Shown: piece after piece, positions 6,491 to 31,743 of the stretch
Position numbering within the stretch: the stretch's first letter is position 1
How the letters are laid out: each line of letters begins with the position of its first letter
Origin: Chryseobacterium sp. PMSZPI
GTDB lineage: Bacteria > Bacteroidota > Bacteroidia > Flavobacteriales > Weeksellaceae
Assembly: GCF_002835665.1 (NCBI RefSeq)
Contig: NZ_PIZV01000070.1
Location: 124,001-188,000, forward strand
DNA length: 64,000 nucleotides
Reading direction: 5' to 3'
Made by a program: the position numbers and the translations under genes
Notes under the pieces: generated by a model
What the model was told of the DNA's origin: nothing
The model's input: the letters and a program-made list of their open reading frames with translations, nothing else
Databases searched by the model: none

Positions 6491-6949
6491 TTATGAATTG
6501 GATCGTTTCAGTTGGTCTATTATTGCATCACAACCTTTATCCAACAATTGAAAAACATTTTCAAAGTCTTTCATATCACCCCAATACGGGTCTGGAACCT
6601 CAGCATTTTTATGATCCCCAATAGCTTCTAAAAATAATGAAATCTTCTGACGTTCTTTCTCATTTTTAGATTTGGAAACCACATCTTCAAACACATCAAT
6701 ATCCATACAATAAATCTTATCGAAAATTTCGAAGTCTTTTGTGGTGATGGGCCTAGATCTTTGTTGGGAAATATCAATACCATGATTTGCAGCAGCCTTA
6801 ATGGCTCTTTTATCGGGATGCTCTCCTTCATGTAAAGAAATTGTACCCGCAGAATCCACTAAAAAATCCGTTGGAACCTTCGCCTTCATAATTCCTTCTG
6901 CCAAAGAGCTTCTGCATATATTTCCTAAGCAGACCATCAATATTTTCAT
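6491..6949 (-). CDS. Low-molecular-weight protein-tyrosine phosphatase
   Basis: This 152-residue protein is the full length for the family. The P-loop CLGNICRS gives the nucleophile Cys7 and phosphate-binding Arg13, and VPDPYWG supplies the general acid Asp120. It hydrolyses phosphotyrosine or small aryl phosphates in the cytoplasm. In bacteria members are often tied to exopolysaccharide tyrosine kinases, but no such kinase is in this window. It is followed closely by the RsmI-like methyltransferase, and dnaA lies upstream on the same strand after about 140 bases. Confidence 0.92.
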   Translation of the reverse strand: MKILMVCLGNICRSSLAEGIMKAKVPTDFLVDSAGTISLHEGEHPDKRAIKAAANHGIDISQQRSRPITTKDFEIFDKIYCMDIDVFEDVVSKSKNEKERQKISLFLEAIGDHKNAEVPDPYWGDMKDFENVFQLLDKGCDAIIDQLKRSNS

Positions 6950-18270: not shown

Positions 18271-19788
18271 TTACAACTCCTTTATCGTATTCCGATTTAA
18301 TTCTTTAAAAACCTCTCCAAATTCATTAATTACATCTGTAGGAAGCATTGCCTCTTTTGAATATTTCTCAGCAGCAAAATCTGCTGCTTTTCCATGTAGC
18401 CAAACTCCAAGAATACAGGTTTCTTTTTCAGAATATCCTTGAGCTAAAAGTGACACCAGAATTCCTGTCAAAACATCTCCACTTCCTCCTTTTGCCAACC
18501 CTGCATTACCCGTTATATTATAAAAAACATCTCCCTGAGGTGTAACAACTTGAGTATGATGATCTTTCAATATAATATAAATATCCAGTTCTTTCGCTTT
18601 CGCTTTTGCCAATTCTAATCTTTTAAAAGAGTTAGCCGTATTTCCAAATAACCTTTCAAATTCTTTTGGATGTGGAGTAATAATGGTCTTTGAGGGAATC
18701 AATCGGAGAGCTTCCTGGTCTGCGGCAATAATATTTAAAGCATCCGCATCGAGAATTAATGGATGTGAATAGGTTTTCAAAAATTCTAAAAAGTTTTTCC
18801 CTGTATCAGAATGAGTACCAAGCCCCGGACCTATGCCACATACCATGTCATTATCAACGACAAAATTATTTACATATTCCCCACCTCCTTTTATAAACAT
18901 TGCTTCAGGGCACGAAGTCTGTATTATTTCATAACCACATTCGGGAGCCATTGTAAAAGTTAACCCTGCTCCGATCTTCAAAGCTGATCGAGTAGCCAAT
19001 ATTGCAGCTCCTATTTTTCCATAACTCCCTCCAATGATCAGCGATTTCCCATAACTTCCTTTGTGGGAAAACTCTTGTCTGGGATTAAAAATAGACTCCA
19101 CCATTTTGTCATCTATTACAAAATTATGAGTTTCCGATGTCTCAGCATATTCCGGATGCAGATGAATATCTAATATTTCCACTTTTCCTGTAAACCGTCC
19201 TGTTTCCGGATGAAGGAAGCTTCTTTTCCAGCACTGAAAGCTCAACGTATAATCAGTTTTTAAAATAGTTGCATTCTCCTTAGGCAGACCGTCTGCAGGG
19301 AGTCCGGAAGGAATATCTATTGCGATCTTATAATTCTTTTTTTTGTTCAACTGCTCAACAAGAATTTCATATTCTCCCTCCAGATTCCCGGATAACCCTG
19401 TTCCAAAAAGAGCATCAATAATAATTGTTTTATCATCGAAATTATATTGATCAATCTCGTTAAACCTCCTTATTGATACCCCTGAAACATCACGAAGCCT
19501 TTTGAGATTCACAGAAGCATCTTCTGAGAACTTTCCTTTTGGATCGTTTACAAATACATCAACATCAAAGCCTTTTATATATAACATTCTTGCAATGGCT
19601 AATCCATCGCCGCCATTATTCCCGTTACCACAAAAAACAAACAATTTTTTATGAATTTTACAGTTTTCGCTAATCCAGTGACACACCTTCATTGAAGCTC
19701 TTTCCATAAGTTGGGTAGAAGAGATCGGTTCATTTAAAATGGTAAACTGGTCCCAATTGCGTATTTGTTCTGCTGTGAAGACTTTCAT
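18271..19788 (-). CDS. nnr: Bifunctional NAD(P)H-hydrate epimerase / ADP-dependent dehydratase
   Basis: This 505-residue fusion has an N-terminal YjeF_N epimerase (about 1-210) with FCGNGNNGGDGLAIARML and ALFGTGLSG. The C-terminal carbohydrate-kinase-like dehydratase (about 225-500) has GGSYGKIGAAILATRSALKIGAG, the IITPHPKEFERL segment and the catalytic NAGLAKGGSGDVLTG motif. Together the domains repair hydrated NADH and NADPH. Both active-site regions look intact. It is transcribed alone, convergent with lgt. Confidence 0.95.
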   Translation of the reverse strand: MKVFTAEQIRNWDQFTILNEPISSTQLMERASMKVCHWISENCKIHKKLFVFCGNGNNGGDGLAIARMLYIKGFDVDVFVNDPKGKFSEDASVNLKRLRDVSGVSIRRFNEIDQYNFDDKTIIIDALFGTGLSGNLEGEYEILVEQLNKKKNYKIAIDIPSGLPADGLPKENATILKTDYTLSFQCWKRSFLHPETGRFTGKVEILDIHLHPEYAETSETHNFVIDDKMVESIFNPRQEFSHKGSYGKSLIIGGSYGKIGAAILATRSALKIGAGLTFTMAPECGYEIIQTSCPEAMFIKGGGEYVNNFVVDNDMVCGIGPGLGTHSDTGKNFLEFLKTYSHPLILDADALNIIAADQEALRLIPSKTIITPHPKEFERLFGNTANSFKRLELAKAKAKELDIYIILKDHHTQVVTPQGDVFYNITGNAGLAKGGSGDVLTGILVSLLAQGYSEKETCILGVWLHGKAADFAAEKYSKEAMLPTDVINEFGEVFKELNRNTIKEL

Positions 19789-27872: not shown

Positions 27873-28013
27873 TAGGTTTTGGCTAAAGCCAATGGAATAT
27901 TTAAAAATGTATTAGGGCGGGCTTCCTTCGTCTACGCTTAGGATCATAACCCACCTCTATTGATGTAGCCAAGCAAATATTGAAATTTAACGACAAGATC
28001 TTTTATCTTTTAT
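27873..28013 (+). repeat. 141-bp dispersed repeat, copy 1
   Basis: It starts TAGGTTTTGGCTAAAGCCAA and ends in AACGACAAGATCTTTTATC. It is nearly identical, in the same orientation, to 30581-30721, with only about half a dozen substitutions concentrated near 27960-27980. It contains a small hairpin (TTGGCT/AGCCAA) and a GC-rich GGGCGGGCTTCC core. There is no open frame or transposase. Confidence 0.9.
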
Positions 28014-28032
28014 CTTTTATCTTTTATCTTTT
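28001..28032 (+). repeat. TTTTATC heptamer tandem repeat
   Basis: Four exact copies of TTTTATC plus TTTT overlap the end of the 141-bp repeat. Copy 2 of that repeat has fewer units, so the tract varies in length between copies. Confidence 0.8.
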
Positions 28033-28049
28033 CTTTTAATCTTAATTCA

Positions 28050-28057
28050 TATATTTG
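28050..28057 (+). promoter_or_regulatory. -7 box driving the fluoride riboswitch transcript
   Basis: TATATTTG matches TAnnTTTG and would start transcription a few bases before the riboswitch P1 stem at 28068. No clear -33 TTTG is present. Confidence 0.5.
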
Positions 28058-28067
28058 CAGTATCAAA

Positions 28068-28154
28068 AAGGAAATGGTGTTCTTCCTTCCCCAACCGCTT
28101 TACAAAAGCTGATGACGCCTGATTAAGAGATTATTAATAGATTAACTGATCAGG
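28068..28154 (+). promoter_or_regulatory. Fluoride riboswitch (crcB motif) upstream of the ClC-type antiporter
   Basis: The aptamer spans about 28068-28120. P1 is AAGGAA (28068-28073) with TTCCTT (28083-28088), closing a loop containing ATGGTGT. P3 is GCTTT (28097-28101) with AAAGC (28105-28109), followed by the invariant-looking TGATG. A pseudoknot pairs GGTGT (28076-28080) with ACGCC (28115-28119). This is the layout of the known fluoride aptamer. Downstream, CCTGAT (28118-28123) can pair with ATCAGG (28149-28154), just before the ATG at 28161. It reuses two pseudoknot bases, which suggests a translation-level switch. Confidence 0.88.
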
Positions 28155-28160
28155 GATACT

Positions 28161-29468
28161 ATGTCAAAAAATCAACCAACATTTGGAGAAAAAGCAATTT
28201 TTCACACTCAATTTTTCTTCAGAAAATTTCCGGCTCTGCCTTATATTGCAAAATGGCTTTGCATTAGTATCATTATTGGAGCATTAGTAGGAACAGCTTC
28301 TGCAGGTTTTCTGCAATCAATGGAATGGGTTACAAACTATAGAGAAAACCACTTATGGCTAATAGCTTTACTTCCAGTAGCTGGTTTTCTTATCGGACTT
28401 TTGTATTATTATTGGGGAAAGGATGTGGAGGCGGGAAATAATCTTCTAATTGATAATATCCATGATCCTAAAGGAATTATCCCGTTCAAAATGGCTCCTT
28501 TTGTTTATTTAGGAACAATTGCCACTCATTTTTTTGGAGGTTCTGCAGGACGTGAAGGTACAGCTCTTCAGATGGCCGGAGCCATTGCCGACCAGCTGAC
28601 CAAACCTTTCAGACTTGATAGAAACGAAAGAAAAATATTAATTATTGCTGCCATTGCTGCAGGTTTTGGCTCTGTTTTCGGAACACCTTTGGCAGGTGCC
28701 GTTTTTGGATTGGAAGTCTTTTTGATCGGAAGAATCCGATACAACGCTATCTTTCCGGCTTTTGCTTCAGCAATATTGGCAGATTGGGCAACCAATTTAT
28801 GGAACGTTAAACACACCCATTATCATATTGATTTCATTCCTAAGCTGGAGTTTTTACCTATCCTGTACAGTATTTTAGCCGGAGTTGCTTTCGGAATCTG
28901 CGCTGCTGCTTTCAGTAGAATTATCCATTGGGCAGGCTCTATTTTCAAATCCAAAATCAAATATCCTCCACTTCGTCCCGTAGCAGGTGGAGTGATTATT
29001 GCTTTAGCTGTTTTTGCAATGGGTACAACACGATATATAGGATTGGGTGTTCCGATTATTGTAGAGTCTTTTCAAAAACAACTTCCATTGTATGATTTCA
29101 TCTTAAAAATGATTTTCACCATTATAACACTTTCTGCAGGATTCAAAGGTGGTGAAGTAACCCCTTTATTCTTTATTGGAGCTACTTTGGGAAGTGCTTT
29201 ATCTTTATTTATACCTCTTCCATTCGGATTATTGGCAGGAATGGGTTTTGTCGCTGTATTTGCAGGAGCAACGAATACTCCTTTAGCCTGTATGCTGATG
29301 GGAATCGAATTATTTGGTGCAGAATCCGGGGTCTATGTGGCAATTGCCTGTGTCGTTTCTTATCTTCTCTCAGGGCATAATAGCATTTACACCCGACAGA
29401 AAATTGGAGAGGCAAAAAACAAAAGGTATGAGAGTCAGGAGGATCGGTCTATATCGGATTTTTTGTAG
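28161..29468 (+). CDS. ClC-family antiporter, probable fluoride/proton exporter (CLC-F type)
   Basis: This 435-residue polytopic protein has ClC signatures: GREGT (130-134, gating Glu132), GSVFGTPLAGAVFGLEV and FKGGEVTPLFFIGATLGS. Chloride-type ClCs have GSGIP and GREGP; here the first is replaced by a GNNLL segment (92-96) and the second reads GREGT. As I recall, such changes mark the CLC-F clade of fluoride/proton antiporters. A fluoride riboswitch lies directly upstream, which agrees. The likely job is to expel cytoplasmic fluoride in exchange for protons. By sequence alone a generic chloride-channel label is also possible, but the riboswitch makes fluoride the better inference. Confidence 0.88.
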   Translation: MSKNQPTFGEKAIFHTQFFFRKFPALPYIAKWLCISIIIGALVGTASAGFLQSMEWVTNYRENHLWLIALLPVAGFLIGLLYYYWGKDVEAGNNLLIDNIHDPKGIIPFKMAPFVYLGTIATHFFGGSAGREGTALQMAGAIADQLTKPFRLDRNERKILIIAAIAAGFGSVFGTPLAGAVFGLEVFLIGRIRYNAIFPAFASAILADWATNLWNVKHTHYHIDFIPKLEFLPILYSILAGVAFGICAAAFSRIIHWAGSIFKSKIKYPPLRPVAGGVIIALAVFAMGTTRYIGLGVPIIVESFQKQLPLYDFILKMIFTIITLSAGFKGGEVTPLFFIGATLGSALSLFIPLPFGLLAGMGFVAVFAGATNTPLACMLMGIELFGAESGVYVAIACVVSYLLSGHNSIYTRQKIGEAKNKRYESQEDRSISDFL

Positions 29469-29474
29469 GTATGG

Positions 29475-29545
29475 TTAGCTGGTTGCTGGTTGTCTGGGTG
29501 CTAGTTGTTTGGGTGTTGGTTGTTTGGGTGTTGGTTATTGGTTCT
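29475..29545 (+). repeat. GTTG-rich 15-base tandem repeat
   Basis: Three consecutive 15-base units occur at 29489-29503, 29504-29518 and 29519-29533. The last two are identical (GTTGTTTGGGTGTTG). Degenerate GCTGGTTG words flank them. The composition resembles the longer tract at 40567-40750. Confidence 0.8.
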
Positions 29546-29619
29546 ACACTACACAGCATTGAACATCGAACCTGTTCCTATTTTTCGCCATTTCCAACTA
29601 TAATTCGTAATTTTACGCC

Positions 29620-30495
29620 ATGTTCGATTACAGATTAAAGGTTTTCCATACGGTAGCATCCAGATTAAGTTTTACAAAAGCGTCAGAAGAACTTCATATT
29701 TCACAACCTGCTGTTACCAAGCATATTAAAGAAATAGAAACTCAACTAAGTACTAAATTATTTGATCGTAAGGGCACTTCTATTCAGCTGACTCAAAGCG
29801 GAAAGATTTTATACGAATATGCTGAGAAGGTTAGAAATATTTATCGTGATCTGGAATTTGAGATCAGTCAAATCAATCAACAGCATAAAGGAAAATTAAT
29901 TATTGGTGCCAGTACTACCGTAGCACAATATATTCTCCCTGAAATACTGGCCAAATTCAACGCTTATTATAAAGATATCAAGATTGAACTTCTTACGGGA
30001 AATACTGAAGCCATTTCATCTCTTTTAAAAGAAGAAAAGATAGATTTGGGAATCATTGAGGGAGAATCTCAATCTTCTTATTTTGATTATAAAACGTTCA
30101 AACCTGATGAAATTGTTCTTACTGCCAAAACAGATCATCCACTGGCGGGAAAAACTTTACAAGTCAAAGATCTCTATAACATTCCTTTTATCTTCCGCGA
30201 GCAAGGCTCAGGAACATTGGAGTTTATCCAAAACCGTTTAAAGGAAAAAGAAATCAATATCAATGAATTAAATACTGTGATTCAACTGGGAAGCAGTGAA
30301 AGCATTAAAAACTATCTACTCCATTCCGATTGCATGGCTTTTCTTTCCATAAGCACTATTTTAAGTGAACTGAAAAACAATACGCTAACCGTTATAGACA
30401 TTAAAAACTTCAGTATCGAAAGAGATTTTCACTTTATTCTCCCAAAAGGTGAACAATCTGAATTAATAGAATTGTTTTTGAGATTTGCAGAGTAG
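29620..30495 (+). CDS. LysR-family transcriptional regulator
   Basis: This 291-residue protein has an N-terminal winged helix-turn-helix (SFTKASEELHISQPAVTKHIKEIETQL) and a CysB/CbbR-like effector-binding domain (LIIGASTTVAQYILPEILAKF, IDLGIIEGESQ). It lies upstream of and on the same strand as a YeiH-type transporter gene. A LysR/YeiH pairing is common in bacteria, so regulation of that transporter is the likely role. The effector is unknown. It is separated from the transporter by about 310 bases, which hold repeat copy 2. Confidence 0.88.
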   Translation: MFDYRLKVFHTVASRLSFTKASEELHISQPAVTKHIKEIETQLSTKLFDRKGTSIQLTQSGKILYEYAEKVRNIYRDLEFEISQINQQHKGKLIIGASTTVAQYILPEILAKFNAYYKDIKIELLTGNTEAISSLLKEEKIDLGIIEGESQSSYFDYKTFKPDEIVLTAKTDHPLAGKTLQVKDLYNIPFIFREQGSGTLEFIQNRLKEKEININELNTVIQLGSSESIKNYLLHSDCMAFLSISTILSELKNNTLTVIDIKNFSIERDFHFILPKGEQSELIELFLRFAE

Positions 30496-30807: not shown

Positions 30808-31743
30808 ATGAAAGATTTCATTCAAAATGAAACAACACGAAAAATAGTTTTTATTGTATTGGCTATTATATGTTTAACTCCACTTATTTCCTCTCCTATA
30901 GCACTGGCTCTTGGTTTTGCATTAGCCGTTTTTATAGGAAATCCTTTTGAAAAACAGCTCCATCAATATATTCATTTGCTATTGCAGATTTCAATTGTCG
31001 GCTTAGGATTTGGATTGAAACTGGATGAAGCTTTACATGCGGGAAAAACAGGATTAATGTTAACTGTAGTCAGTATTGTAACGGTAATGGTTTTAGGATA
31101 TATCTTAGGAAAGATATTTAAACTGGAAAGACCACTATCCTATCTTCTTTCGGCAGGAACTGCCATTTGTGGCGGCAGTGCCATCGCAGCTGTTTCTCCC
31201 ATTATTAAGCCCAGCACCAAACAAATTTCTCTGGCTCTGGCTATTGTTTTTACTTTAAATTCTATTGCTTTATTTGTTTATCCTGCTATTGGACATCTAT
31301 TACACCTTTCGCAAGAACAATTTGGACTATGGTGTGCTGTAGGAATCCACGACACGAGCTCTGTAGTGGGTGCAGCAGGTAAGTATGGTAATGAGGCCTT
31401 AAAAACAGCTACGACAGTAAAGCTGGCCCGTGCTTTATGGATTATTCCTGTTTCTCTGATTACCATGTTTATTTTTAAAAGCAAAGATTCAAAAATAAAG
31501 ATTCCATGGTTCATTGGATATTTCATTGTGGCAATTCTTCTCAATACTTATTTTCCTTTCTTTGATCAGTTTAGTGTTCCCATAACTGTTTTAGCAAAAT
31601 CAGGATTAAATCTTACCTTATTTTTTATTGGATCAACCCTTTCCATTCAAACATTAAAGACAATAGGCTTTAAACCTTTATTTACAGCTATCCTTCTTTG
31701 GGTAACCATTAGTGTCGGTAGTCTGCTTTATATTATTCACTAA
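30808..31743 (+). CDS. yeiH: YeiH-family putative sulfate exporter
   Basis: This 311-residue protein has about ten hydrophobic helices and the UPF0324/YeiH features IVGLGFGLKLDEALHAGKTGL, LSAGTAICGGSAIAAVSPIIK and WCAVGIHDTSSVVGAAGKYG. Members are annotated as putative sulfate exporters, but direct transport evidence is sparse. The upstream LysR gene supports regulated expression. A strong terminator follows immediately. Confidence 0.88.
   Translation: MKDFIQNETTRKIVFIVLAIICLTPLISSPIALALGFALAVFIGNPFEKQLHQYIHLLLQISIVGLGFGLKLDEALHAGKTGLMLTVVSIVTVMVLGYILGKIFKLERPLSYLLSAGTAICGGSAIAAVSPIIKPSTKQISLALAIVFTLNSIALFVYPAIGHLLHLSQEQFGLWCAVGIHDTSSVVGAAGKYGNEALKTATTVKLARALWIIPVSLITMFIFKSKDSKIKIPWFIGYFIVAILLNTYFPFFDQFSVPITVLAKSGLNLTLFFIGSTLSIQTLKTIGFKPLFTAILLWVTISVGSLLYIIH

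Follow-up and report, generated by a model that had tools for sequence, protein, structure and literature searches.

Riboswitch-controlled CLC-F antiporters are, to go by its title, the reported subject of a 2012 PNAS paper. A fluoride switch of the translation type has reportedly been described in Pseudomonas syringae (by Baker in 2012), and the asparagine form of CLC-F is said to be the more selective one (by Brammer in 2014). The PNAS paper on CLC-F is cited in passages of PMC11139923 and PMC11077948. In the same passages of PMC11139923, three sequences identify the CLC-F proteins, GNNLI/GMGLI, GREGT/V and GEVTP, where GNNL is one of two published forms of the first signature, and the two fluoride exporters are said to be usually mutually exclusive.

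Here we analysed a 64,000-nucleotide stretch of DNA from Chryseobacterium, referred to as the window, in which a fluoride riboswitch aptamer precedes a gene for a protein of the CLC-F class. The aptamer and the gene are inherited together, they are exchanged for the other exporter, CrcB, in related genomes, and a conserved, covarying hairpin overlaps the aptamer beside the AUG. The locus is very probably a chromosomal fluoride-resistance unit of the riboswitch-CLC-F kind, in which fluoride would free a hidden start and the antiporter would expel F-.

The leader carries a full fluoride aptamer

The Rfam scan of the whole 64-kb window returned a single match at the gathering threshold, the fluoride riboswitch aptamer RF01734 at 28061-28128 on the forward strand, to which all features of the unit belong. 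Its score is 50.9 bits (cmscan, E 3.5e-11), with the cut-off at 34, and the match is full length, spanning model positions 1-64 of 64. It is the only copy found in the whole assembly, which has 79 contigs, a size of 3.82 Mb and a completeness of 90%. An earlier note, made from the letters alone, had described a full aptamer layout with P1, P3, TGATG and a GGTGT/ACGCC pseudoknot; the covariance model agrees, and each of these elements was found where the note had placed it. The aptamer of the note is therefore real; Rfam begins the match at 28061, 7 nt upstream of the earlier 28068.

In the cmscan structure line, the first aptamer helix (28070-28086) pairs GGAA at 28070-28073 with UUCC at 28083-28086, and the second Rfam helix (28097-28109), the P3 of the earlier note, pairs GCUU at 28097-28100 with AAGC at 28106-28109. 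TGATG follows at 28110-28114. The loop of the first helix contains the 5' pseudoknot strand GGUGU (28076-28080), which is complementary, with one G-U pair, to the 3' strand ACGCC at 28115-28119; this strand and the U28120 that follows it make up the segment 28115-28120. The role of the pseudoknot strands is taken from known fluoride aptamers, which a passage of PMC8752731 describes together with their linchpin A-U pair. Going by sequence position, A28112 and U28120 would be homologous to A40 and U48 of the Bacillus cereus aptamer and form the putative linchpin pair. The aptamer core is conserved across 134 distinct leaders, and the leader is predicted to bind and sense fluoride.

Just 5' of the aptamer lies TATATTTG (28050-28057), which fits TAnnTTTG, the consensus of the Bacteroidota -7 promoter element. 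Of the 134 distinct leaders, 124 have this motif in the 45 nt that precede the regex-matched first GG, compared with 3.8% of shuffled upstream stretches. Because the box adjoins the aptamer and is kept in the leaders, the transcript probably begins at or slightly 5' of the aptamer.

Short imperfect tandem repeats flank the unit, with TTTTATC units before the promoter (window positions 27996-28036) and TGGTTG-like units after the CLC-F gene (29475-29545). Farther downstream are a gene for a LysR-type regulator (29620-30495) and one for a YeiH-like putative exporter (30808-31743). Of 80 related loci, each covered with up to 1.5 kb of flank, 56 have the LysR gene close to CLC-F. The LysR gene of the window, 151 nt downstream, was considered as an operon partner and rejected, as no tie to fluoride was found.

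The gene encodes a protein of the CLC-F class

The open reading frame behind the leader starts with the ATG at 28161, its stop ends at 29468, and it encodes 435 aa. The protein matches Pfam Voltage_CLC with 253.2 bits, while its score with the NCBIfam ClcB-like model is 108.5 bits, where the cut-off is 482, and the chloride-channel equivalogs are all far under their cut-offs. Its best solved relatives are 6D0J, 6D0K and 6D0N (208-212 bits, 6D0J being the top match with 211.7 bits), structures of the CLC-type fluoride/proton antiporter of E. casseliflavus, whereas chloride-type CLC chains score at most 51.5 bits. The identity to the E. casseliflavus protein is 35-36% (BLAST), and the closest encoded relatives, in C. 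sediminis and others, are 93% identical.

The window protein contains the motifs GNNLL, GREGT and GGEVTP. GNNLL falls in the columns of the GNNLI signature with L for I as the final letter, GREGT (with E132) corresponds to GREGT/V, and GGEVTP (with E332) contains GEVTP. The residues N93, E132, E332 and Y410 map to M79, E118, E318 and Y396 of E. casseliflavus CLC-F, and N93 occupies the place of the chloride-binding Ser. The combination of GSGIP and GREGP that marks ClcA is absent from the protein, which has GNNLL and GREGT instead. The earlier note had pointed to these two replacements, and both stand; GGEVTP is a further motif that it had not mentioned. It had also held that the protein would be called a chloride channel by motif alone. 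This is true of the general family models, but the motifs themselves say CLC-F by the identifying sequences given in the passages of PMC11139923.

In a FastTree of 118 CLC sequences (the collected loci with 6D0J and the E. coli-type ClcA 1KPL; local supports), the window protein stands as the identical copy L274. The 73 GREGT proteins and 6D0J form one exclusive clade with a support of 0.70, and 6D0J, its only characterised member, is nested within it. The next node outward has a support of 1.0 and adds one GKEGP protein (L309). The protein thus groups with the solved CLC-F and apart from the chloride-type CLCs, as the earlier note had anticipated. The genome also encodes a second CLC on contig C56 (represented in the tree by L314, 88% identical), which has GSGIP and GREGP, matches Pfam Voltage_CLC and lies nearest to ClcA. 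BLAST gives about 23% identity between this protein and the window CLC-F, and the motifs alone suffice to tell the two apart.

By sequence class, the window protein is a CLC-F type F-/H+ antiporter, and it is predicted to transport fluoride selectively. The covariance match and the CLC-F grouping together support the earlier joint reading of RNA and protein as fluoride export, in which the fluoride specificity is presumed.

The collected loci include a third CLC subfamily, whose members are about 430 aa long, in Chryseobacterium and a neighbour genus (L302-L305, L320 and L321). These proteins have GSLGPEAP or GSLGPEGP at the GREGP position, and so no arginine, and they contain neither GSGIP nor GNNL. 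The GKEGP protein L309, just outside the CLC-F clade and joined to it with a support of 1.0, has no GNNL and no riboswitch, and is possibly an intermediate CLC type.

Riboswitch and CLC-F occur together and are exchanged for CrcB

Among 148 genomes of the same genus, 126 contain the riboswitch together with CLC-F, and the remaining 22 contain neither of them. The CLC-F match has E < 1e-180 in 125 of those 126 genomes. In the other one, G063, a 75%-complete single-contig genome, the gene is fragmented (C1:651986-653258), probably by sequencing errors. In the 22 genomes without CLC-F, the best CLC match has an E of 2.8e-29 or weaker, and G124 has none.

CrcB/Fluc was found above the cut-off in 22 of the 148 genomes, and its distribution is nearly the reverse: it is present in 20 of the 22 genomes without CLC-F versus 2 of the 126 with it (G123 and G145). 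The two genomes with neither exporter are drafts that are 87% and 73% complete. A sample of the family (n = 148) contains CLC-F only in 29 genomes, CrcB only in 107, both in 6 and neither in 6, and when Chryseobacterium is removed from it (n = 128) the counts are 12, 104, 6 and 6. Fisher p values are 2e-20 for the genus, 4e-19 for the family and 1e-8 for the family minus the genus, with the genomes being related and the counts thus not independent. No CrcB was found in the assembly of this genome, and the window CLC-F is therefore probably its only fluoride exporter.

The riboswitch reaches the gathering score at every one of the 20 loci of this protein retrieved from other genera in the family, and it is absent from all 13 loci of other CLCs. 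Upstream of three GREGT proteins from other families (L308, L310 and L311) no riboswitch was found even at a lax threshold, indicating that the CLC-F protein does not need the riboswitch; this fits the proportion of about 30% of CLC-F genes under a riboswitch that is given in a passage of PMC11139923. In the phylum sample, all 18 genomes that were listed for family f2, which belongs to the same order, are without a fluoride riboswitch.

A conserved hairpin links the aptamer to the start codon

The 3' end of the aptamer, CCUGAUUA at 28118-28125, is complementary to UGAUCAGG at 28147-28154, and the two form a sequestering hairpin (28118-28154) in the predicted fold and in the comparison of leaders. 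The 3' arm ends 6 nt upstream of the AUG in the window leader. The hairpin and the aptamer have C28118, C28119 and U28120 in common, of which C28118 and C28119 close the pseudoknot strand. The two folds are therefore mutually exclusive. The segment 28115-28166 has a predicted fold of -9.8 kcal/mol (z -1.86, with 7 of 200 shuffles as stable), while the stability of the whole leader is unremarkable (z -0.20).

For comparison, 234 leaders before GREGT-type CLC genes were reduced to 134 distinct ones, and a usable leader was lacking in 12 further records. Because of their length, ten of the 134 were set aside, 5 with an earlier in-frame ATG and 5 that were longer or shorter, and 124 were tested. 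A helix of at least 5 bp (5-9 bp) between the CCU and the 16 nt that precede the ATG can form in 123 of the 124 leaders versus 45 of 2480 shuffled controls, the sole exception being L262. Four of the leaders that were set aside also lack the hairpin, namely the related L195, L197 and L258, whose best helix has 3-4 bp, and L259; in another one, L264, it is present 23 nt from the ATG.

A MAFFT alignment of 31 leaders put the 3' arms of the divergent ones in the wrong place and was not used for counting pairs; the final GG ahead of the ATG served as the anchor for the arms instead, irrespective of pairing. L262 has no GG anchor and dropped out of this set, and L217 was added, in which the pairing reaches the GTG start of another gene upstream of CLC-F. 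Among the 31 distinct arm pairs, 7 have A-U instead of G-C at pair 4, and 8 have C-G instead of A-U at pair 5. Pairing holds in 77% of the cells of pairs 4-9 compared with a shuffled mean of 64% and a maximum of 73%, and 24 cells are altered on both sides compared with a mean of 9.5 and a maximum of 19 (2000 shuffles), where the shuffling of arm pairs leaves relatedness in place and the variation stems from a few lineages. The arms have drifted jointly to differing sequences, such as CCUGAU/AUCAGG, CCUGCAA/UUGCAGG, CCUAC/GUAGG and CCUACAAUA/UAUUGUAGG.

A scan of 27900-29700 found no terminator-like site between the aptamer and the ATG, and an intrinsic terminator was accordingly rejected as the expression platform. 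Instead, aptamer bases can alternatively pair with a conserved, covarying arm beside the start codon. When the pseudoknot bases were blocked in silico, the mean unpaired probability of positions -15 to -1 rose from 0.31 to 0.43 in the window leader. That of its 3' arm rose from 0.02 to 0.19, with a 6-bp remnant left. Over the 124 leaders the same block raised the value from 0.305 to 0.423, with a rise in 109 of them.

A riboswitch-led cluster in a related genome

In G145, one of the two genomes of the genus with both exporters, we observed a riboswitch-led fluoride-resistance cluster (contig C1, about 4,825,000-4,832,500; L322:9992-16692 and L034:1246-2467). It comprises a fluoride riboswitch, two UspA-like genes, an enolase, an inorganic pyrophosphatase, DUF190, CrcB and a further Usp gene. 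By eye, it also contains two genes that are metallophosphatase-like. A second CLC-F, 47% identical and with GNNLI, GREGT and GEVTP, is part of it. The cluster adjoins genes for a TraG/YWFCY coupling protein, an N6-methylase/SNF2 protein and an integrase-like fragment, and because of these neighbours it may be mobile.

Three fluoride riboswitches in this region (L034:2400-2467, 6772-6842 and 18926-18992, all on the reverse strand) precede UspA-like and MutS-domain genes. Each of them has the identical CCTGATTAA/TTAATCAG hairpin, followed by the ATG of a frame of 52-64 codons ahead of the larger gene. These short frames are possibly leader peptides or decayed genes.

Proposed mechanism and alternative readings

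The presence of the hairpin in 123 of 124 leaders, the compensatory changes in its arms and the lack of a terminator in the scan make translational ON control of the CLC-F gene likely. In our model, the direction and the translational mode of the switch are predicted as follows. At low cytoplasmic fluoride, the 3' end of the aptamer would pair with the downstream arm and hide the start region, so that little antiporter would be made. Fluoride, with Mg2+, would lock the GGUGU/ACGCC pseudoknot and the adjoining A-U pair, and the locked aptamer would withdraw the CCU from the hairpin. The start region would then open, ribosomes would translate CLC-F, and the protein would expel F- using the proton gradient. 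The start region is freed partially in the energy model, the stability of the whole leader is ordinary and some leaders have no hairpin; these points weaken the translational step. According to passages of PMC6847099, the phylum is without Shine-Dalgarno sequences, and in Flavobacterium johnsoniae the structure surrounding the start codon modulates translation.

The switch could instead act on transcription, in that the hairpin at 28118-28154, or an untranslated leader left exposed, would terminate transcription at low fluoride, either intrinsically or with Rho, as in Bacillus cereus crcB. The best-studied fluoride riboswitches are indeed transcriptional, and passages of PMC13273304 and PMC8752731 describe pseudoknot bases that change partners in the same way and then form the foot of a terminator. 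However, the window hairpin is followed by GGGAUACUAUG, which has no U-run, and the two terminator sites that were found in 27900-29700 both lie inside the gene and are close in number to the shuffled expectation of 1.5. Moreover, in 115 of the 124 leaders the distance between the 3' arm and the ATG is 5-7 nt, a spacing that suits the hiding of a start site. We therefore regard transcriptional control as unlikely, with a modest chance left to it, Rho-dependent termination included, and translational control as the preferred reading.

Two other readings concern the identity of the parts, and we give each of them very little weight. The protein might be a chloride-type or unselective CLC that the riboswitch uses for pH or halide balance, given that it is labelled a voltage-gated chloride channel by the general models and that GNNLL differs by one letter from the published GNNLI. 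Against this, its best match and its tree position are with CLC-F, it has GREGT, GEVTP and an Asn replacing the chloride-binding Ser, the genome has a separate GSGIP/GREGP CLC, and a passage of PMC11139923 reports that CLCs of the chloride type do not carry fluoride. The perfect co-occurrence with the riboswitch in 148 genomes and the near-exclusion with CrcB also speak for fluoride. A degenerate aptamer, or one that senses something other than fluoride, is just as improbable: one of the pseudoknot pairs is G-U and the fluoride response is read from sequence, yet the match is full length at 50.9 bits, the core is conserved in the 134 distinct leaders and the gene behind the aptamer is that of a fluoride exporter. 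A fluoride-sensing aptamer ahead of a fluoride antiporter thus remains our reading of the unit.

Beyond this locus, we lean, with some reserve, towards the view that many Bacteroidota fluoride riboswitches share a translation-type platform, in which the CCU, including the linchpin U, would swap between the fluoride pocket and the hairpin before the AUG, and structure alone, not Shine-Dalgarno masking, would gate the start of the exporter. In open-licence PubMed Central, we found no paper on the platform of Bacteroidota fluoride riboswitches. In a phylum that initiates translation without Shine-Dalgarno sequences, the conserved start-hiding hairpin offers an uncomplicated case for testing riboswitch control. 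The near-perfect exchange between riboswitch-CLC-F and CrcB among Chryseobacterium is a clean population-level sign of function, and the gene should be named clcF, for a fluoride/proton antiporter, rather than chloride channel.

Comparison with known systems

The window leader has the full aptamer layout of the fluoride riboswitch (crcB motif, RF01734), scores above its curated cut-off and, as in that class, stands upstream of a fluoride exporter. In the Bacillus cereus and Thermotoga petrophila switches, as described in a passage of PMC13273304, the pseudoknot bases go into a terminator. The window leader makes the same base exchange, but beside the AUG and with no terminator seen.

The window protein belongs to the same clade as E. 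casseliflavus CLC-F (6D0J, 6D0K and 6D0N) and has the equivalents of its E118, E318 and Y396, while it contains Asn where that protein has M79. It shares the Pfam Voltage_CLC fold family with ClcA and with the second CLC of the genome, from which it differs by GNNLL, GREGT and GEVTP in place of GSGIP and GREGP.

Fluoride resistance under riboswitch control is likewise found in the fluoride operon of Enterobacter cloacae FRM. Passages of PMC5533749 describe this operon as an island of six genes with CrcB, enolase, pyrophosphatase and UspA, whereas the unit here has a single CLC-F gene. The closer parallel to it within the genus is the G145 island, which resembles the FRM operon as given in those passages. 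Riboswitch-controlled CLC-F antiporters are an established system, and the aptamer and the protein of the window show every computable feature that defines RF01734 and CLC-F, respectively.
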